NCBI RefSeq assembly: GCF_026184235.1
Contig: NZ_CP110806.1
Location: 558,001 to 622,000, forward strand
DNA: 64,000 nt
Direction: 5' to 3'
Origin: Cellulomonas sp. S1-8
Lineage (GTDB): Bacteria > Actinomycetota > Actinomycetes > Actinomycetales > Cellulomonadaceae
Shown here in pieces: positions 6,135-30,752 of the stretch. The translations under genes were made by a program, and so were the position numbers. The notes under the pieces are model-generated. The model saw nothing but the letters and a program-made list of their open reading frames with translations. It did not search any database and was not told where the DNA came from. Position 1 is the first letter of the stretch, and each line of letters opens with the position of its first letter.

Positions 6135-7874
6135 ATGACGACACGACGTGCCATGACGGCACGCCTGGCAGTGACGGGAGCGCTCGCGATCGGGGCCGCG
6201 CTCGTCGGGGGACCCGCGGCGCACGCCACGGACGACGCACCGCTGGTCGACGCCGGGACCGCCGCGGTCACCGGTCGCTACATCGTGGTGCTCGACGCCG
6301 CCGCGGCCGGTGCCGCGAGCGGCGCACGCGCCGAGCGCGCCGCCGACCCGGTGCTGGCCCGCGCGGCCGAGCTCGGTGTCGACGTCGACCACCAGTACCT
6401 GCACGCGCTCAACGGCTTCGCCGCCGAGCTCGACGCGACCCAGCTCGCGGGGCTGCGCGCCACGCCGGGCGTCGCGTACGTCGCCGAGGACGCTGCGGTG
6501 CGCGTGTCGGACACGCAGACCACCGCCGCGCAGACCGCCGCCGCGGCGACCGCCGCCACGCAGACGCCCGTCCCGTCCTGGGGTCTCGACCGCATCGACC
6601 AGCGCACCCTGCCGGGCGACGACCGCTACGCCTACGGCACGACGGGCGCCGGTGTGACGGTGTACGTCATCGACACCGGCATCCGCACGACGCACGAGCA
6701 GTTCGGCGGGCGCGCCGGCATCGGGTTCGACGCCTACACCGACGGGGGACCGGCGGCCTGCACGGGGCACGGCACGCACGTCGCCGGGACGGTCGGCGGC
6801 TCGACCGTCGGCGTCGCCAAGGACGTCGCGCTGGTCTCGGTCCGCGTCGCGGACTGCCAGGGGTACGCCCTGACGTCGGCCGTCGTCGCCGGGATCGACT
6901 GGGTGACCTCGGCGCACGACGGGCCCTCGGTCGCGAACCTCAGCATGGAGTCGACCGAGGTCCCCGTGATCGACCAGGCGATCACGCGGTCCATCGCGTC
7001 GGGCATCACGTACGTCGTGGCCGCGGGCAACCGCGGGGAGCCGGCCTGCGACCGCAGCATCGCCAAGGTGCCCGCGGCGATCACGGTCGGTGCGACGCGC
7101 CCCGACGACGTGCGTCGCGCGTCGTCCAACTACGGCGCGTGCCTCGACCTGTTCGCCCCCGGTCAGGACATCGGCTCGGCGTGGAGCGGCAGCGACACCG
7201 AGCTGCGGTTCGTCAGCGGCACCTCGATGGCGGCGCCGCACGTCACCGGCGCGGTCGCCCGCTACCTCGAGGAGCACCCCGCGGCCACCCCCGCGCAGGT
7301 GTCCGCGGCGATCGTCGACGCGGCGACGCCGGGTGTCGTCGGGGAGGCCCTCACGCAGTCGCCGAACCTGCTCCTGCACCTCGCACCGCCGGCCACGGAG
7401 CCCACGCCGACGCCGACGCCCTCGGCGTCGCTCACCGCCCAGCACAAAAACTTCGACAACGCGGTCGGCGACGGTGCGCTCGCCGCGGGCGTCCGGCTCG
7501 CGAACGCCGGCGCGACGCCCGTCGACCTGTCGCAGGTCACCGTGCGGTACTGGTTCACGCGCGACGGCGCCGCGTCGTTCCAGTCGGCCTGCAGCTACGC
7601 GGTCCTCGGCTGCTCGACCGTCACCCACCGCGTCGTGCCGCTGACGACGCCCCGCCCGGGCGCCGACGCGTACCTCGAGGTCGGGTTCACCGCGGGCACG
7701 CTCGCACCGGGCGCGACCACCGGCGAGGTGCAGGTGCGGATCAACACCGCGGGCTGGACCCCGATGACCGAGGCCGACGACCACAGCTACGCGGCGCCGA
7801 CCTCGCAGTACGCGGCCACCACCACGGTGACCGTGCACGTCGGCGGGCACCTGGTAGGCGGCATCGAGCCGTAA
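6135..7874 (+). CDS. Secreted subtilisin-like serine protease with C-terminal CBM3 cellulose-binding module
   Basis: A 579-residue exported protease. A Sec signal (1-35, ending PAAHA) is followed by an I9-type propeptide (GRYIVVLD ... ALNGFAAEL ... VAYVAEDAAV, to about 130). The S8 catalytic domain shows Asp180 (VYVIDTGIR), His212 (GHGTHVAG) and Ser364 (SGTSMAAPHV). A PTPTPTPS linker leads to residues 433-579, which match a family 3 carbohydrate-binding module: LSQVTVRYWFT, CSYAVLGCSTVTH, YLEVGFTAGTLAPGA, GEVQVRIN and the end LVGGIEP. CBM3 normally tethers cellulases to cellulose, so this protease is probably anchored on cellulose fibres or cellulase complexes. ATG 6135 follows GGGGAG; another in-frame ATG at 6153 would still leave a signal peptide. 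Confidence 0.88.
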   Translation: MTTRRAMTARLAVTGALAIGAALVGGPAAHATDDAPLVDAGTAAVTGRYIVVLDAAAAGAASGARAERAADPVLARAAELGVDVDHQYLHALNGFAAELDATQLAGLRATPGVAYVAEDAAVRVSDTQTTAAQTAAAATAATQTPVPSWGLDRIDQRTLPGDDRYAYGTTGAGVTVYVIDTGIRTTHEQFGGRAGIGFDAYTDGGPAACTGHGTHVAGTVGGSTVGVAKDVALVSVRVADCQGYALTSAVVAGIDWVTSAHDGPSVANLSMESTEVPVIDQAITRSIASGITYVVAAGNRGEPACDRSIAKVPAAITVGATRPDDVRRASSNYGACLDLFAPGQDIGSAWSGSDTELRFVSGTSMAAPHVTGAVARYLEEHPAATPAQVSAAIVDAATPGVVGEALTQSPNLLLHLAPPATEPTPTPTPSASLTAQHKNFDNAVGDGALAAGVRLANAGATPVDLSQVTVRYWFTRDGAASFQSACSYAVLGCSTVTHRVVPLTTPRPGADAYLEVGFTAGTLAPGATTGEVQVRINTAGWTPMTEADDHSYAAPTSQYAATTTVTVHVGGHLVGGIEP

Positions 7875-21024: not shown

Positions 21025-21831
21025 TCAGATCTCCAGGGCGCCGCGGACGACCGAGACGCCCGAGTGGGCCGGTTCGCCGTCCAGGGGCTCGTCGCTGACG
21101 TCCACCACGGGGAACTCCGTCAGGTCCAGGCCCGCGGGGAGCGCGAACTCGCCGCTCGTCCCGTCGAGCGTGCCCAGGCTGACGAGCCCCGAGACGTCGG
21201 GGCGCAGCAGCCAGACCTCGAGGAACCCGTCGCCACCGGGCTCCGCGTCCAGGTCGACGACGAGCGAGCGTGACCCGTCGGACGCCGTGCGCACCTCGGC
21301 CGTGCCGCCGGGCGTCCAGCCCGGCAGCGGCTCCAGGACCGCGCTGGCGAGCAGGGTCGACCGGTCGGCCTGCTCCTGCCACAGGGCGGTCGCGCCGGCG
21401 CCACCGACGACGAGCCCCGCCGCAGCGGCCACCGCGAGCCACGCACGTCGCACGCGCCGACGCGGGCCCAGCGGTGTGACGGTTGCCTGCTCCCGGCCGG
21501 CCGGGGCGTCCTCGGTGGTGGTCCGGGCGGACGGGTCCGGGTGCGGCGGCAGCGGCAGCGACCTCACCCCGCCGGCCGCCGCGTACGCGCGCTCACCGAG
21601 GCCCAGCTCGGCTGCGACCCGGTCCCACACCTGCGGCGCGGGCGCCACCAGCTGCGGCTCCGGGCCCGACTCGCGCGCCAGGTCGGCGACCCCGCGCAGG
21701 GTCGCGACCTCGTCGCCGCACCGCGTGCAGGCGTCGACGTGCGCGAGCTCCTCACCGGACCCCACCTGCTCGCCCAGGGCGAGGAGGGCGAGCGTCTCGT
21801 CATCCACGTGCAGGTCATCGGACGGCACCAT
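21025..21831 (-). CDS. Membrane anti-sigma factor of the RskA type
   Basis: A 268-residue anti-sigma protein. The N-terminal zinc-binding module has His31, Cys35 and Cys38 (HVDACTRC), which would hold an ECF sigma factor. One membrane helix at about 128-150 ([20 protein letters not shown]) separates it from an extracellular RskA-type domain ([27 protein letters not shown]). It overlaps the sigma factor gene by 17 bases and is its cognate inhibitor. Release probably needs regulated proteolysis, as for other RskA proteins. Confidence 0.88.
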
Positions 21832-22387
21832 CCACCTCCCATCGGGTCCGCAGGCGCGCCAGGCTACGCCGCACGTGACTCTTCACGGTCCCGAGCGGCA
21901 GGCCCAGCCGAGCAGCGATCTGGTCGTGCGTGAGGTCGTCGAAGAACGCGAGCCGCAGGATCGTGCGCTGCGGGTCTCCCAGGTCCTCCAGGGCGTCGGC
22001 CACGACGACCCGGTCGACGACCCGTTGGTCGAGCGTCGGCACCGCCGCGCGGTCCGGGTCGCCGGCCACCTGCGGCTGCTCGCGCAGCCGCCGGTCGCGG
22101 GTCCGCTTCTCGTGCGCGTCGGCCACCGCGTGCTTCGTGATGCCCAGGAGCCAGGCGGGCAGGCGGGCACGGTCCGGGTCGAACCGCGCCCGTCCCCGCC
22201 ACGCCTCGACGAACACCTGCTGCGTGACGTCCTCCGCGTCCGTCGTGTCGCCGAGCGAGCGCAGCGCGACCGTGTGGACCAGGGCGGACCACCGGCGGTA
22301 CGCCTCGCCGATCGCCGCCTCGTCCCCGGACGCGAAGGCTCTTCCGAGCTCCTCCACGTCGTCGGGCACGGTGGTCGACGTGCTCAC
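21815..22387 (-). CDS. ECF RNA polymerase sigma factor (SigK-like)
   Basis: A 190-residue group IV sigma factor. Region 2 (about 25-90) contains [14 protein letters not shown], and region 4 (about 130-185) contains [20 protein letters not shown]. Its stop overlaps the anti-sigma gene, so the two are made together. The sortase and DUF4397 genes lie immediately upstream on the same strand with a 57-base gap, so they may be its targets or form one long operon. SigK-like membership is my judgement from the RskA partner. Confidence 0.9.
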
Positions 22388-24666: not shown

Positions 24667-25419
24667 TCAGAGGCGTGCGGTGAGCTCCAGCAGCGCGCGG
24701 ACCAGGGCCGCCGCCTCCGGGACCAGCTCGCGCTCACCCGGCAGCAGAACGGGCGCGACCGAGCGCAGCGCCGCCGCGTCGTCGAGCGCGGCCAGCGGCG
24801 AGACGTCGCTCGCGTGCAGGAACGCGGCGAGCAGCGCCCGCGCCGCCTGGGAGTAGTCGCCGCCCGCGTCGACCGCGACCTCGGCCACGAGCACCGCGGT
24901 CAGCGCGACGTCGAGCTCCGCCGTCCCGGCCCGTGCGTTCGCCCAGTCGACGACGCCCGGCCCCGACTCCGTGAGGATGACGTTGCCCGGGTGCAGGTCC
25001 AGGTGCACCACGACGGGGCCGCCGTCGAGCTGCGGCCAGTCGTGGTCCGCCGGCACGGCCCACGACGGGGGTGCGGGGACCAGGTGCAGCCGGTGGTGCA
25101 GGGCCGCGAGCGTGTGCGCGGCGTCGGCGATGGAGATCTCGCCCGCGCCCAGCGCCTGGAGCAGCGTCGGGCCGTGCAGCCGACGCATGACGATGTCGGA
25201 CCCTGACGCGTCGAGCACGTCCGGGGCGGGGAAGTCGTGCGCGCGCACGTGGCGCAGCAGCTCGACCTCGGGTGTCGCGTCGCGGCCGGCCCGGTAGCGC
25301 CGGAGCACGCGCTCGTCGTCGAGCGCGTACACGTCGGCGGAGGTACCCGAGGCCAGCAGCGGACCGGGCACCTCGGCGGGCGGCGCCGCGTCCGGAGGAA
25401 CGACGTCGGCGGGTGACAT
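24667..25419 (-). CDS. Aminoglycoside phosphotransferase-family kinase
   Basis: A 250-residue kinase-fold enzyme. The glycine-poor N-lobe contains SGTSADVYALDDERVLRRYR; the catalytic loop is VVVHLDLHPGN with the Brenner HxDxxxxN signature, followed by GPGVVDWANA, the metal-binding DFG equivalent. Members phosphorylate aminoglycosides, choline, homoserine or other small alcohols; there is no mark of a specific drug here. It is short, and its convergent neighbour is the DUF1540 gene. The divergent or co-directional gene upstream is a degenerate GGDEF protein 60 bases away. Confidence 0.82.
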   Translation of the reverse strand: MSPADVVPPDAAPPAEVPGPLLASGTSADVYALDDERVLRRYRAGRDATPEVELLRHVRAHDFPAPDVLDASGSDIVMRRLHGPTLLQALGAGEISIADAAHTLAALHHRLHLVPAPPSWAVPADHDWPQLDGGPVVVHLDLHPGNVILTESGPGVVDWANARAGTAELDVALTAVLVAEVAVDAGGDYSQAARALLAAFLHASDVSPLAALDDAAALRSVAPVLLPGERELVPEAAALVRALLELTARL

Positions 25420-25479: not shown

Positions 25480-26559
25480 CTACGGCGTCGGCCCGGTCCC
25501 GTCCTGCGGGCCCTCGGCGTGGCCCTCGGGCGGGCGCGACCGGTCGACGTGCCGCCCCGGCGCGGAGCTGTCCGCCGCGGAGCCGTCCGCCGCGGAGCCG
25601 TCCGCCGCGGACCGGGGGAGACCGCTCGGGCCACCGGGCCACAGGTCGGCCGACAGCAGCCCCGGCGGCAGCGCCGAGCCGATCTGCCCGATCGCCGTGC
25701 CCGCGCCCGTCCGTCGCGCGTGCTGGGGTCGGGGGACGTCCTGGTCGTGCGGCCCGGCGGGCCGCGGGATGCCGGCCCACGGCTCGGGCCGCGCCAGGGA
25801 CGCGAGCCGGTGCACGGCCTCGGCGTGCGACTCGGGCAGCGGCTCCACCCACACCCGCACCGGCTGCCGCACGCTGATGCGCACGTCGATGTCCTCGCAG
25901 CGACGCGCGATGTCCGCGCGCAGGTCCGCGACCCGGGCGTCCACGTCGTCGTCGGTCCGCGTCAGGACGACGAACACACCGCCGCCGAGCGTGGCCATCG
26001 GGTGCCCCGTGCCGAACGCCTCGCGCAGCGCGGCGCCGACCGCCGCGGACCGTGCCGCGCGCATCATGCCGGTGACGTGGCCGGCGGCGACGTCCACGAC
26101 CGCCAGCCGGTGGAGCATCGCCGGGTCCACGTCGTCCTGCTCCGCCTCGAGGTACGCCTCCGAGAGCCGCACCCCCAGGTACTGCTGCGTGGGCAGGCCC
26201 GTCTCCGGGTCCACGCACGCGCCCGTCGTGACGAGCGCCGCCTGCGCGTCCGACCAGCCCTCGTTGAGGGCGCGGACCGCGTCCATGGGCGGGGTCGCAC
26301 GGCCCGTCGAGCGGTAGAGGCAGACGAGGTCGTCGAGCGCCTCGCCGATGCCGACGCCGTGCTCGCCGCGTGCCCGGCCCAGCTCCCAGGCGGCCGCCGA
26401 CGGGTCGGCGTCCGCGAGGACGGCGACGGCGAGCGCGTCGACCGCGGGGTGGTACCAGTCGGAGGGGCGTCGCCAGACCGACGCGACGCTCTCCTCGCGC
26501 CAGCGCTCCCGCAGCCCCTCGGGCACGGCGTACCCGTCCTTGCCGATGTTGGTCGTCAC
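25480..26559 (-). CDS. Degenerate GGDEF-like protein
   Basis: A 359-residue soluble protein. The middle (about 115-235) keeps the GGDEF-domain frame: DPETGLPTQQYLGVRLSEAY at its start and, where the active-site loop should be, LGGGVFVVL instead of GG(D/E)EF. The DPETGLP segment begins a diguanylate cyclase domain, but the missing acidic residue suggests it no longer makes cyclic di-GMP and may instead bind nucleotide or a protein. The C-terminal 90 residues are Pro/Ala/Ser-rich with SAADG repeats. The gene is divergent from the 1315-residue sigma-factor protein gene with 245 bases between them. Confidence 0.65.
   Translation of the reverse strand: MTTNIGKDGYAVPEGLRERWREESVASVWRRPSDWYHPAVDALAVAVLADADPSAAAWELGRARGEHGVGIGEALDDLVCLYRSTGRATPPMDAVRALNEGWSDAQAALVTTGACVDPETGLPTQQYLGVRLSEAYLEAEQDDVDPAMLHRLAVVDVAAGHVTGMMRAARSAAVGAALREAFGTGHPMATLGGGVFVVLTRTDDDVDARVADLRADIARRCEDIDVRISVRQPVRVWVEPLPESHAEAVHRLASLARPEPWAGIPRPAGPHDQDVPRPQHARRTGAGTAIGQIGSALPPGLLSADLWPGGPSGLPRSAADGSAADGSAADSSAPGRHVDRSRPPEGHAEGPQDGTGPTP
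25562..25611. repeat. 15-bp tandem repeat encoding SAADG
   Basis: Three full copies and a partial copy of GCGGAGCCGTCCGCC (first copy with one change) lie in the 3' part of the GGDEF-like gene. On the minus strand they code for repeated Ser-Ala-Ala-Asp-Gly. The in-frame unit means copy number can vary without frameshift. Confidence 0.8.
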
Positions 26560-26804
26560 ACCGGATGAGAGTGGCGCCGGGGCGGATCGTGACGCGGTTC
26601 TGCGGACTTTTCACCCAGACGGACCTGCGGGGCCGATGACGGCCGAGAACGTTTGCCCCCGTGGAGTGCCGTGCACACCGGCTCCGACGGGGGATATAGC
26701 CAGGACTCCGCGTCCTGTTCATCCCTTCGGTCGGTTATGGCACTCTGTACCGGCGAGGTGGCCCGGTGGACGGCGACCTCACGAGCACATGACGAGGACT
26801 GCGC

Positions 26805-29800
26805 GTGGTAGTAGGCGCGAACCAGGGCGGGGTCATCGAGGATGACGCCGCGCTCCTGCGAGCCACCCGGGAGGGTGACGCCGCGGCATTCGGGCACCTG
26901 TACGAGCGGCACGCGGGGGCCGCGCTCGTCGTCGCCCGGCAGTACACGGACTCCGCCGCGGACGCCGAGGACGTCGTCGCGGACGCGTTCGCCAACATGC
27001 ACCGCGCGCTGCTCGGCGGCGTCGGCCCCGAGTCCGCCTTCCGCGCGTACCTGTTCACCGTCGTGCGGCGCGTCGCCACCGTGCACCGCACCGCCGGCCG
27101 CCGCGCGGAGCCCACCGACGACGTCGCGACCCTCGAGACCGCGTCGACACCGGTCGAGACGGCCGAGGAGCCCACGCTCGCCGGCTTCGAGCGCAGCGTG
27201 GTCGCCCGCGCGTTCCGCTCCCTGCCCGAGCGGTGGCGCGAGGTCCTGTGGCACAGCGAGGTCGAGGGGCTGACGCCCGCCCAGATCGCGCCGATCGTCG
27301 GCCTGTCCGCCAACAGCACCGCCGCGCTGGCGTACCGGGCCCGCGAGGGCCTGCGCCAGGCGTACCTCCAGCAGCACCTGCAGGACCCCCTCGACGACGG
27401 CTGCCGCGCCGTCGCAGGCAAGCTCGGTGCGTACGTCCGTGGGGGCCTCGCCGCCCGCGACACGGGCCACGTCGAGACGCACCTCGACGAGTGCGCGCAG
27501 TGCCGGGCGCTCGTCCTCGAGCTCGGCGACGTCAACCACGGGATGCGCGCGGTCGTCGCCCCCCTCGTCCTGGGGCTGCTCGGCCTCGGTGCGCTCGCGC
27601 ACGACCTGCCGGTCGGCGGCGGGCTCGCCGCCGGTGCGGTCGCGCTCGGCCAGCCCGCCGCCCCTGCCGCCGCGTCGGGCGGCTCGGGTGCTGCGGGCGC
27701 GGGTGCGTCGAGCGCTGGGGCGAGCGCCACGGGCACGGCGGCCGCGGGCACGGCGGCCGCGGGCACGGCGGCTGCCGGGACCACGGCCACGGCCACGGGC
27801 GCGGCCGGTGTGGTCGCGGGCATGTCGGCGAGCGCGATCGCCATCGCCGTCGCGGCTGTCGTGGTCGTCGCCGCCGCGATCGTCGGTGCGGTCCAGCTGC
27901 TGTCCGGCCCCGATCCGGTCGCCGGGCCCTCGCCCGACGTGTCCGGGGCCTCCGAGTCGGCGTCCGAGAGGCCCGGGGCGACCGCGACCCCGGGCAGCAC
28001 GCCGTCCGCCACCACCCTCCCGTCCGTCTCCCCGTCAGCGGCGCCGACCGCGGACGACGACGACGCGCGGCCGGGCGCCAGGCCGAGCAGCGCACCGACG
28101 TCCCCGCCCCTGGCCGGCCCGCCGCCCGGTGCGCCGCCCGTGGTGCCCGCCGGCCCGACGCCGGGGCCGACGACCGCACCGACCACTGCGCCGACGACCG
28201 CCCCGACCACCGCACCCACCGCGGAGCCCACCCCGACCCCGTCGCCCCCGCCGGCGCCCGCCGACGTCGTCGTCGTCGGCCCCGACGGCGGCATTGCGCT
28301 GACCGCCGGCGCGGCGGGTCAGGCCATCGAGCTCTCGGTGAGCAACGCCGGGGGGCTGCCCGCGGCGGAGCTGGTCGCCGAGGTCGACCTGCCGCTCGGA
28401 GTGACGCTCGACGCCGATGCCGTGGCGGACCTCGGCTTCGGGTTCGCTCCCGCCGACACCGCGTGGCAGTGCGTGACGAGCGAGGAGGGGCGCTCCGCGA
28501 CGTGCGTGCTCAGCGAGCTCCCGCCCGGTCAGGCCGCGGTCCTCGCCCTGCGCGTCACCGTCGACGAGTCGTACCTCTCCTCCGGCGACGAGGTCGTGAG
28601 CCTGCGGATCACCGGCGGCGGTCGCACCTGGGAGCCGGCACCGATCCGCATGCACGTCGCGTCCTCGCCCCCGCGGCTCGCCTTCGACGAGCAGGTGCCG
28701 ACCGAGGTGCAGCTGGTCACCGGGCGCACCCGCACCCTGGACCTGCCGGTGCGCAACGCCGGGGGCACGGCGGTCACCGAGGTGCCGGCCGTCGTCGAGC
28801 TCGCCCTGCCGTCCGGCGTCACGGCCACGGCCTCCGCGCCCTGGACGTGCACGGGTGGCACGGGCCCTCTGCTGACGTGCGAGCACGCCGGGCTCGCGGC
28901 GTTCGAGCGGTCGACGCTCGCGCTCACGCTCGCCGCTGCGGACGGCGCCCCCGCCGCCGGTTCGATGCACCTGCGCCTCACGCCGTCCGCGTACCGGCCC
29001 GTCGAGACGCACGACGTCGCCTACACCGTCGTGCGGCCCGCGACGCTGACCGTCGAGGCGCCGACCGCCCTCGACGTCGCCCCGGGCACCGACGCGACGC
29101 TGGGTGTCACCGTCGCCAACGGCGGGGACCTGACCGCGGGCGGTGCCACGGTCTCGCTGACCGTGCCCGTCGGCGTCGACCTCACCGCGGTCGCGGGTGA
29201 CGGCTGGACGTGCACGCTCGCCGACGCGACGGGCACGTGCGCGAGCGACCTCGCGGCGGGGGCACGCGGTGAGGTCGTCGCGACGCTCGGCGCCCCCGCG
29301 GGCACCGTGGGCGACCTCGGCCCGGTGACGGTCGCGGTGGTCGGCGACGACGCCGACGTGCCCGCCGCGCCCACCACGACGGCCCTCACCGCGATCGAGC
29401 CCGTGCTGTCCGTCACGGACACCACGGCCGTCGTCGACACCGTCAACGGTGGCGTCCTCGCGTTCGTCGTCCACGTCGCCGGCGAGCGCGAGGACGGCCG
29501 ACCCGCCGCGGCCGCCTCCGACGTGCGCGCCGCCGTGACCCTGCCGCCCGGCGTCACCACCGACCCGCTCGCCGTGGGGACCCCGACGGCCGGGTGCACG
29601 ACCGCCGGATCGGTCGTCACCTGCCCGCTCGGCGACCTGCCCGCCGGGTCCGACGTGCCCGTGCAGCTCAACCTCCGGGCCGCGGGCGCGGTCCGCGGCA
29701 GCCTCGACGTCCGCGTCACGGCGACGGGCGCGGCGCCCGCGTCCGCGTCGACGCGGGTGGTCGTGCCGTCGGCCAACCTCACGCCCGTGTGGTCCGGCGT

Positions 29801-30752
29801 CGGCGACCTCGAGGTCACCGAGGTGGGTGCGCCGCTGCTCGGCTGCGTCGACTCCTACGGCGCCACGTGCTCGGCCGTGCGCCTCGAGCGCGACAACAAC
29901 GGACTCGACATGCGACCGCTCGACCAGGCCGCACCCCCCGGCGCGCGCGCGACGATCCCCGTGTCCTCGACGACGGGGCTCGAGGTGCGCGACGCGCGAC
30001 CGGTCGTGTGGGCCGGGCTGTACTGGTCGGCCGTGCGCGGCTCCGCGGACTCCTGGAGCGGGGCGTTGGACACCGCGAGGCTCCTCGGCCCCGACGGCGT
30101 GTGGACGGACGTCACCGCCGAGTCCGTCACCCGGGTGACGGACAGCAGCCAGCGGCAGTACTACCAGGCGTCCGTCGACGTCACCGACCTCGTCGCGCGC
30201 GGCGGTGCCGGTGCGTGGTCGCTCGCCGACGCCGCCGTCAGCGCCGGTCGGACCGACCGCGACCCCAGCTACTACGCCGGGTGGTCGCTCGTCGTCGTCC
30301 ACGGCACGCAGGCCGCGCCGGGCACCGCGGGGGAGTCGTCGGTGACGGTGCACGAGGGCGGCGCGTGGATCGGCTCCAACTCCACGGCGCCCGCGTTCGC
30401 GTTCGTCGGGGAGGCCGGGGCGCGCACCCGCATCGGCGTCGTCGCGTGGGACGGCGACCGCGGCACGACCGGCGACCGGCTCACGCTCTCGGGCGTCGGC
30501 GCGCTTACCCCCATGCGGTGGGACGGGACGGGTGTGGTCGGCGGCGGGTCCGCTGCCAACGCGCTCGACTCGACCGCGACGGGCTGGATGCACCCGAACG
30601 CCCTTGGCGTCGACGCCAAGGGCTTCGCCGAGGTCACGCTGCCGTCCGGGGTCGGCATGCTGACCCCGAGCACGGCGGGCGACCAGTACCTCATCGGGGT
30701 CGTCACGGTCCGCACGGCGTCACCGCCGCTGCTCACGACGCCCGCCGGCTGA
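26805..30752 (+). CDS. Membrane-spanning ECF sigma factor fused to a zinc anti-sigma domain and large ectodomain
   Basis: One 1315-residue chain. Residues 10-95 are sigma region 2 (DAEDVVADAFANMHRALL) and 130-186 region 4 (LTPAQIAPIVGLSANSTAAL). Residues 200-240 hold a zinc anti-sigma-like site with His226, Cys230 and Cys233 (HLDECAQC). A short hydrophobic stretch (251-265) and a strong membrane helix at 343-366 (AIAIAVAAVVVVAAAIVGAV) follow. Beyond are a PTTA-repeat linker (to about 485), DUF11-like beta-sandwich repeats (485-990) and a C-terminal domain (993-1315) beginning VWSGVGDLEVTEVG. The sigma part must be cytoplasmic and the rest outside. Fusions of ECF sigma factors to anti-sigma and membrane segments are known in actinobacteria, but such a large ectodomain is unusual. 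GTG 26805 follows GAGGA. Confidence 0.82.
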   Translation: MVVGANQGGVIEDDAALLRATREGDAAAFGHLYERHAGAALVVARQYTDSAADAEDVVADAFANMHRALLGGVGPESAFRAYLFTVVRRVATVHRTAGRRAEPTDDVATLETASTPVETAEEPTLAGFERSVVARAFRSLPERWREVLWHSEVEGLTPAQIAPIVGLSANSTAALAYRAREGLRQAYLQQHLQDPLDDGCRAVAGKLGAYVRGGLAARDTGHVETHLDECAQCRALVLELGDVNHGMRAVVAPLVLGLLGLGALAHDLPVGGGLAAGAVALGQPAAPAAASGGSGAAGAGASSAGASATGTAAAGTAAAGTAAAGTTATATGAAGVVAGMSASAIAIAVAAVVVVAAAIVGAVQLLSGPDPVAGPSPDVSGASESASERPGATATPGSTPSATTLPSVSPSAAPTADDDDARPGARPSSAPTSPPLAGPPPGAPPVVPAGPTPGPTTAPTTAPTTAPTTAPTAEPTPTPSPPPAPADVVVVGPDGGIALTAGAAGQAIELSVSNAGGLPAAELVAEVDLPLGVTLDADAVADLGFGFAPADTAWQCVTSEEGRSATCVLSELPPGQAAVLALRVTVDESYLSSGDEVVSLRITGGGRTWEPAPIRMHVASSPPRLAFDEQVPTEVQLVTGRTRTLDLPVRNAGGTAVTEVPAVVELALPSGVTATASAPWTCTGGTGPLLTCEHAGLAAFERSTLALTLAAADGAPAAGSMHLRLTPSAYRPVETHDVAYTVVRPATLTVEAPTALDVAPGTDATLGVTVANGGDLTAGGATVSLTVPVGVDLTAVAGDGWTCTLADATGTCASDLAAGARGEVVATLGAPAGTVGDLGPVTVAVVGDDADVPAAPTTTALTAIEPVLSVTDTTAVVDTVNGGVLAFVVHVAGEREDGRPAAAASDVRAAVTLPPGVTTDPLAVGTPTAGCTTAGSVVTCPLGDLPAGSDVPVQLNLRAAGAVRGSLDVRVTATGAAPASASTRVVVPSANLTPVWSGVGDLEVTEVGAPLLGCVDSYGATCSAVRLERDNNGLDMRPLDQAAPPGARATIPVSSTTGLEVRDARPVVWAGLYWSAVRGSADSWSGALDTARLLGPDGVWTDVTAESVTRVTDSSQRQYYQASVDVTDLVARGGAGAWSLADAAVSAGRTDRDPSYYAGWSLVVVHGTQAAPGTAGESSVTVHEGGAWIGSNSTAPAFAFVGEAGARTRIGVVAWDGDRGTTGDRLTLSGVGALTPMRWDGTGVVGGGSAANALDSTATGWMHPNALGVDAKGFAEVTLPSGVGMLTPSTAGDQYLIGVVTVRTASPPLLTTPAG
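27732..27776. repeat. 15-bp tandem repeat encoding GTAAA
   Basis: Three copies of GGCACGGCGGCCGCG (last with two changes) code for Gly-Thr-Ala-Ala-Ala repeats in the low-complexity stretch before the membrane helix of the sigma-factor fusion protein. Confidence 0.75.
28167..28214. repeat. 12-bp tandem repeat encoding PTTA linker
   Basis: Four copies of a CCGAC[C/G]AC[C/T]GC unit code for Pro-Thr-Thr-Ala repeats. This is the wall-spanning style linker between membrane helix and ectodomain of the sigma-factor fusion protein. Confidence 0.75.

Follow-up and report, generated by a model that had tools for sequence, protein, structure and literature searches.

The DNA considered here is a 64,000-nucleotide stretch of Cellulomonas sp. 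S1-8 (contig NZ_CP110806.1, positions 558,001 to 622,000 of the forward strand), called the window below, and the subject of this report is a gene at its positions 26805 to 30752 whose product joins an extracytoplasmic function (ECF) sigma factor, a zinc anti-sigma domain, a membrane helix and a large surface part in one chain. We read this protein, with a probability of about 0.58, as an ECF sigma factor that is tied to the membrane, inhibits itself and, after its release, recognises the promoter GCGTCAt-N17-(C/G)TCTCAT in front of the divergent GGDEF-like gene and a few others. At rest, the anti-sigma domain would keep the sigma regions at the membrane; an event at the cell surface would free the sigma part, with stepwise proteolysis the most likely route, and the freed factor would read the promoter predicted by comparative genomics and turn on the GGDEF-like gene together with a very small further set. 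The further targets would be an EAL-like gene and the gene of a 78-residue LuxR-type helix-turn-helix (HTH) protein in Cellulomonas, and other genes in the f9 (Demequina-like) relatives. An earlier note on this DNA had described the fused architecture and asked for a promoter motif, and such a motif was found at the GGDEF-like gene and few others; that this neighbour is itself a probable target of the sigma factor, with a conserved promoter-like site, was absent from that note. The elements on which the reading turns are the following.

25480..26559, minus strand: divergent, probably degenerate GGDEF-like protein, probable target and partner (adjacency in 48/48 genomes; weak GGDEF profile matches)
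26565..26595, minus strand: promoter-like site GCGTCAC-N17-CTCTCAT, intact, 5 nt ahead of the GGDEF-like gene's GTG start codon
26805..30752, plus strand: one-chain ECF sigma, zinc anti-sigma, membrane and surface protein, 1315 residues (frame, Pfam, NCBIfam, relatives)

When 16 intergenic regions were aligned, conserved blocks appeared on the GGDEF-like gene's side. Of 44 upstream regions, 34 had the pair (G/T)CGTCA and (C/G)TCnCA(T/C) at a constant spacing of 17 bp, and no box pair at any other spacing from 8 to 29 was seen in these regions, which came from 52 loci, with 8 that the regular expression missed left out and two genomes occurring twice. In the GGDEF-like genes listed, the start codon lies 4–5 nt past the second box, so that the boxes would fall near positions −35 and −10 of a transcript without a leader, and GCGTCAt-N17-CTCTCAT-N5-start is apparently a leaderless promoter. 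When the spacing was held fixed and the best match within 600 bp was taken at 37 named loci, the first box, GCGTCA, was intact at 36 of them, and at 19 the second was intact as well; the other 18 had 1–3 mismatches, nearly all in the second box. A first promoter guess, GGTGAA-N14-15-CGTCA, gave 3 to 15 sites per genome in 17 genomes, with 0 to 2 in the controls, and was dropped for the 17-bp pair, as most of its listed matches were GGTGAAC or GGTGAAG and seemingly coding.

The GGDEF-like gene and the sigma gene travel together. A survey of 297 genomes of the order, with at most six candidates per genome scored, found the GGDEF-like gene in 48 at E (expectation value) up to 1e-9, not counting three weaker matches (E 5e-4 to 8e-4), and all 48 also had a match to the anti-sigma part (query residues 194–272, E up to 1e-6), with the two genes on the same contig, adjacent and divergent in every case. 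In 40 other genomes the anti-sigma part was matched at E 2.9e-14 or weaker, and no GGDEF-like gene was counted. Among 39 relatives, the GGDEF-like gene was present in the same 20 as the sigma orthologue (sigma E below 1e-80), and among 51 named loci it stood beside the sigma gene in all 37 from Cellulomonas, Promicromonospora and Myceligenerans and was not found in the other 14.

The motif is rare genome-wide and follows this pair. Its exact pattern occurred at 50 sites in 23 of the 39 relatives, and the reversed control gave none. Of the 50 sites, 43 precede members of just three families, the GGDEF-like, the EAL-like and the 78-residue LuxR-type HTH proteins. Thirty sites were fetched, of which 7 lay before a GGDEF-like gene, 8 before an EAL-like gene, 11 before a LuxR-type HTH gene and 4 before nothing convincing; the 20 further sites were placed by coordinates (8 GGDEF-like, 8 LuxR-type HTH, 1 EAL-like and 3 without assignment). 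The EAL-like protein has around 207 residues, and the one that was scanned matched Pfam EAL at E 7e-13. The genome of the window has two exact sites, at the GGDEF-like gene and at the LuxR-type HTH gene C1:136017. Across the order, 88 sites were counted in 56 of the 297 genomes, compared with 5 reversed-control sites, and the motif was found in 35 of the 48 genomes with the sigma/GGDEF-like pair (67 sites) versus 21 of the 249 without it (21 sites), a co-occurrence with a Fisher value of 2e-20, uncorrected for the kinship of the genomes. In all 19 sigma-positive Cellulomonas, the promoter of the LuxR-type HTH gene was seen at a steady distance, with 0 mismatches in 17 and 1 in 2; in the seven sigma-negative Cellulomonas, the motif at this gene was at background (5–6 mismatches) in five and perfect in two. 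The use of this promoter by the sigma factor is thus suggested by co-occurrence and position and falls short of proof.

Several observations weigh against the proposed role of the one-chain protein, which is weakened by second boxes that have decayed and by motif carriers that are sigma-negative. Among the closest relatives of the window, the GGDEF-like gene has kept its first box intact, and its second has decayed, with 2–3 mismatches in genomes G016, G019 and G003 and 1–3 at loci L269–L272 and L034–L036, and a second box with 1–3 mismatches is the rule in all Promicromonospora and Myceligenerans; the LuxR-type HTH site is perfect in the closest relatives tested (G003, G016 and G019). The two sigma-negative Cellulomonas that keep a perfect motif at the LuxR-type HTH gene are G007 and G013, and a one-mismatch version is present in G112, from another genus of the family, in which the sigma gene is absent or weak. 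Other genera of the family with no sigma gene or a weak match only had four (G195) and five (G220) mismatches, and the same comparison gave no match in G265, also from another genus. The sigma gene could be missing from G007 and G013 through an assembly gap, as these genomes are in 280 and 920 contigs; in G007, all that was found was an APH homologue of 49% identity, in a contig stretch with neither a sigma nor a GGDEF-like gene. The five motif-less, sigma-negative genomes may be one clade, in which case the loss might have happened just once, and some of their HTH genes may be non-orthologous. No motif reading towards the sigma gene was found on either strand upstream of the 51 named loci, so there is no sign of autoregulation, the usual arrangement for ECF factors. 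Finally, the AlphaFold model left the docking mode of the anti-sigma domain unfixed (predicted template modelling score, pTM, 0.33).

The sigma-negative carriers, the decayed second boxes and the lack of a motif facing the sigma gene would fit a motif that serves some other sigma factor or regulator, with the one-chain protein only linked to the GGDEF-like gene and controlling something else, and the genome of the window has 28 matches to sigma region 2, the one-chain protein included, so other readers exist. We consider this explanation doubtful, since the site lies within the intergenic region shared by the two genes in 34 of the 44 upstream regions and in several families, the motif is over-represented where the pair occurs, and it is absent at the LuxR-type HTH gene of five of the seven sigma-negative Cellulomonas.

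A few observations stand beside the regulon. At L220, two EAL-like genes are adjacent (6160–6885 and 6981–7604, plus strand), with an exact motif directly before the second only. In the f9 genomes, the gene that follows the motif encodes an LRV-type protein of around 145 residues at L224, L225, L226, L228 and L230 (six distinct sites; one protein scanned) and, in single cases, a 69-residue MerR-type HTH protein and secreted-looking proteins. In G294, it lies upstream of a small frame that precedes a sigma-like gene. A second conserved element, TTCAYCC...TATGGCAGGCTGT, faces the sigma gene at window positions 26718–26748 (plus strand) and in other upstream regions of alignment A3, and is possibly the sigma gene's own housekeeping-type promoter. 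Another sigma domain in the genome of the window (G000:C1:1510380-1510904, plus strand; L003) lies in a 980-residue open frame.

The membrane-tethered sigma factor proposed above requires that its parts be joined in one intact chain, and these are laid out as follows, all on the plus strand.

26898..27092: sigma region 2, residues 32–96 (Pfam Sigma70_r2, above cut-off)
27201..27347: sigma region 4, residues 133–181 (Pfam Sigma70_r4_2, E 4e-9, above cut-off; many nearly invariant residues)
27402..27506: zinc anti-sigma domain zf-HC2, residues 200–234, with ligands C200, H226, C230 and C233 invariant (Pfam E 2e-6, above cut-off)
27543..27620: conserved hydrophobic stretch, residues 247–272, whose first part prolongs the long anti-sigma helix 231–263 in the AlphaFold model
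27831..27902: membrane helix, residues 343–366 (hydrophobicity scan; comparable helix in most listed homologues)
27903..28262: Pro/Thr-rich linker with PTTA repeats (sequence)
28263..29762: string of DUF11/Ig-like beta-sandwiches with paired cysteines (AlphaFold, Ig-like matches, cysteine counts)
29763..30749: C-terminal DUF3344-like domain (likeness to P0191)

Most of what the earlier note had described from the letters was confirmed. Its reading frame of 1315 codons is a single, uninterrupted GTG-start frame with no internal stops and no frameshift splitting the sigma part from the ectodomain, and the start at 26805 agrees with the family consensus, which likewise begins around 12 residues ahead of the conserved SDAELI. 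The two sigma regions that it saw were recovered by Pfam and by the NCBIfam sigma70-ECF model (residues 28–186, E 5e-19), and with regions 2 and 4 only, both conserved in the family, the sigma part looks like an intact ECF sigma factor. The proposed zinc site, HLDECAQC, lies in a zf-HC2 match with the Cys/His...HxxxCxxC ligands of a zinc anti-sigma domain, and all four ligands are invariant in an alignment of 38 sequences (the protein of the window and 37 relatives), in which many residues of both sigma regions are nearly invariant as well. The 37 came from the best 120 of 270 relatives found by phmmer at E up to 1e-3; the named relatives among those listed are Actinobacteria, mostly Cellulomonas. 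Counting the query, HxxxCxxC was kept in 118 of 121 proteins and the one-chain layout, by a stricter test, in 117; since this layout recurs among relatives, the protein is not an artefact of one assembly.

The membrane helix predicted at 343–366 also held, residues 343–363/366 being the sole stretch with a membrane-spanning score within the first 900 residues in hydrophobicity scans. Beyond it, the PTTA linker and the roughly 830 residues of DUF11-like sandwiches with a separate C-terminal domain proved to be an ectodomain of 829 residues of beta-sandwiches with a DUF3344-like domain at the end. AlphaFold gave a mean pLDDT (its per-residue confidence) of 91.1 for 28263–30752, and a single Pfam DUF11 match, at residues 757–828, was above cut-off. 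The C-terminal domain, for which Pfam gives no direct match at E up to 1, is 37% identical over 315 columns to P0191, itself a Pfam DUF3344 match. Its role as a ligand receptor, suggested in the earlier note, is hypothetical.

The earlier note made no mention of a second hydrophobic stretch, residues 247–266, which is more conserved than the membrane helix; A252, P253 and G257 in this post-zinc stretch are invariant in the 38 sequences. Were this stretch and residues 343–366 both to cross the membrane, the large C-terminal part would be cytoplasmic, and in favour of that topology, some homologues score above a lenient membrane cut-off in this stretch and one or two helices are allowed in such fusions (PMC8999054). 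We regard it as very improbable. In the window's protein, the stretch scores poorly (best +1.2 against −2.9), and in the AlphaFold model it prolongs the anti-sigma helix, with low confidence beyond 245. The cysteines number exactly three before the anti-sigma domain in 101 of the 117 one-chain proteins and are even in number after it in 111, which suggests a zinc site inside and disulfides outside and therefore one effective membrane crossing, and the Pro/Thr linker and the DUF11 and DUF3344-like domains would likewise be typical of the outside.

How the sigma part is set free is a separate question. Zinc-domain anti-sigma factors can be redox-responsive, and no cleavage site was identified in the one-chain protein. 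The statement in the earlier note that signalling must be proteolytic was too strong: zinc loss, a conformational change or phosphorylation, the last reported for SCO4117 (PMC5826349), remain as routes by which a sigma part that is never cut free might work, or it might work at the membrane, with the stalk mainly an anchor or adhesin. This we think unlikely, as a tethered sigma factor would need to act at the membrane, the fused factors ECF48/52/53 are expected to be activated by proteolysis and cleavage has been demonstrated for IutY (PMC8999054). Release of the sigma part by proteolysis is kept as the favoured step of the mechanism.

The GGDEF-like partner itself is related only distantly to known GGDEF proteins, and the earlier note's naming of a GGDEF neighbour was right, with a weak relation. 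The window's protein has no Pfam match, and a weak GGDEF_2 match (E 0.049) was seen in 1 of 25 relatives. A profile of the family gave weak matches to six GGDEF structures among 18 matches (7e6g, E 0.02; FimX, 0.17; 3icl, 0.79; 6zxb, 0.91; 6zxc, 1.1; 6zxm, 1.5), and most of the others were designed repeat proteins aligned to another part of the protein. GGDEF proteins carry DxLTGL and GGDEF patterns; because the alignment has D-P-x-S/T-G-L and G-x-P-x-A-x-L-x-x-G at these positions, the neighbour is probably a degenerate GGDEF domain. In place of the GGDEF active-site motif of active diguanylate cyclases, the 25 aligned sequences have GGGVF, GDGLY or similar.

One further gene of the surroundings is listed here.

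24667..25419, minus strand: APH-type phosphotransferase gene, a neighbour kept in many Cellulomonas relatives

No separate anti-sigma gene lies directly beside the sigma gene, as had been noted; the nearest belongs to a canonical pair of a SigK-like ECF factor and an RskA-type anti-sigma factor at 21025–22387 on the minus strand, around 4.4 kb off. A sortase gene and a DUF4397 gene come next after this pair, which is retained in three close Cellulomonas relatives (L034–L036). The one-chain sigma gene is often broken in draft genomes, and six named public assemblies (L275, L278, L279, L281, L299 and L301) break inside it near residue 310. Other one-chain sigma/zinc proteins with different surface regions, most with a membrane helix, were seen at L048, L049, L044, L236, L310 and L313 (Occultella, Cellulomonas, Glutamicibacter, Marmoricola and one further genome), and a GGDEF-like neighbour was not detected where tested. 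At loci from Herbidospora, Micromonospora and Planotetraspora, the sigma frames are of 175–214 residues; unfused relatives with a separate anti-sigma gene were sought at L312, L314, L316 and L319, and no adjacent zinc anti-sigma frame was recognised downstream on the forward strand.

Taken one step further, with odds that we put slightly better than even, a surface stalk commands a sigma factor with a regulon of two or three genes through one rigid promoter, passing surface input to a non-canonical, cyclic-di-GMP-like protein set in actinobacteria; in Cellulomonas, the genes would be those of the degenerate GGDEF-like protein, the EAL-like protein and the single-domain LuxR HTH protein, and GCGTCAt-N17-CTCTCAT would be leaderless at both the GGDEF-like and EAL-like genes. 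If true, this would be an ECF system tied to GGDEF/EAL-like proteins of catalytically altered look, and the clade would bear on how surface domains govern a sigma part. Since its predicted promoter is concrete, its predicted targets number two or three and presence and absence contrast naturally among genomes, input, release and output are testable in one Cellulomonas strain.

Actinobacterial ECF fusions to anti-sigma and membrane parts do exist, as the earlier note had it: ECF48, ECF52 and ECF53 have C-terminal fusions with a zinc anti-sigma part, one or two membrane helices and extensions of up to 400 residues (PMC8999054), and the present protein, with its sigma regions, zinc domain, membrane-spanning helix and surface part encoded by a single actinobacterial frame, is of this kind, although around 1100 residues follow its sigma part. 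The literature passages on ECF48 and ECF53 yielded no regulon for either. SCO4117 of Streptomyces coelicolor, an ECF52 protein, is the best understood among the actinobacterial one-chain factors expected to be cut (PMC8999054); it too joins an ECF sigma factor, zinc finger, membrane helix, Pro-rich stretch and surface domain, and it too is of a type confined to Actinobacteria (PMC5826349). Its surface part is a carbohydrate-binding module, and some ECF52/53 proteins may bear carbohydrate-related domains (PMC10766802), whereas here DUF11 and a DUF3344-like domain take that place and no carbohydrate-binding Pfam family was listed at E up to 1. The SCO4117 motif, CSGYN-17bp-SRHA, termed theoretical by its authors, is not evidently the motif found here, and it occurs at one of that gene's own promoters (PMC5826349), unlike the present motif, which does not face the sigma gene. 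IutY (ECF243) of Pseudomonas putida is likewise a sigma factor and membrane anti-sigma in one chain, with known regulated proteolysis, but it serves Gram-negative iron-siderophore signalling and responds to aerobactin, and the IutY passages of PMC8999054 mention neither a stalk nor a GGDEF-like partner. ECF122 (model WP_057211282.1, Cellulomonas sp. Root930), was set aside by description, on the grounds of the conserved neighbour named for it, a methylguanine methyltransferase. The clade, its promoter and its partner are not named in the relevant passages of PMC8999054, PMC5826349 and PMC10766802, and the literature searches made gave no paper joining ECF, GGDEF, fusion and promoter. In a tree of 48 sigma-plus-zinc-domain rows, the GGDEF-partner proteins group together (16 rows, fork 96/97), apart from a clade of NPCBM-bearing Streptomyces proteins (9 rows, fork 97/86) that stand for SCO4117/ECF52 by architecture only; long branches elsewhere leave the deeper order unsure. 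The architecture is thus of a known kind, and the clade, the GGDEF-like partner and the promoter are new.

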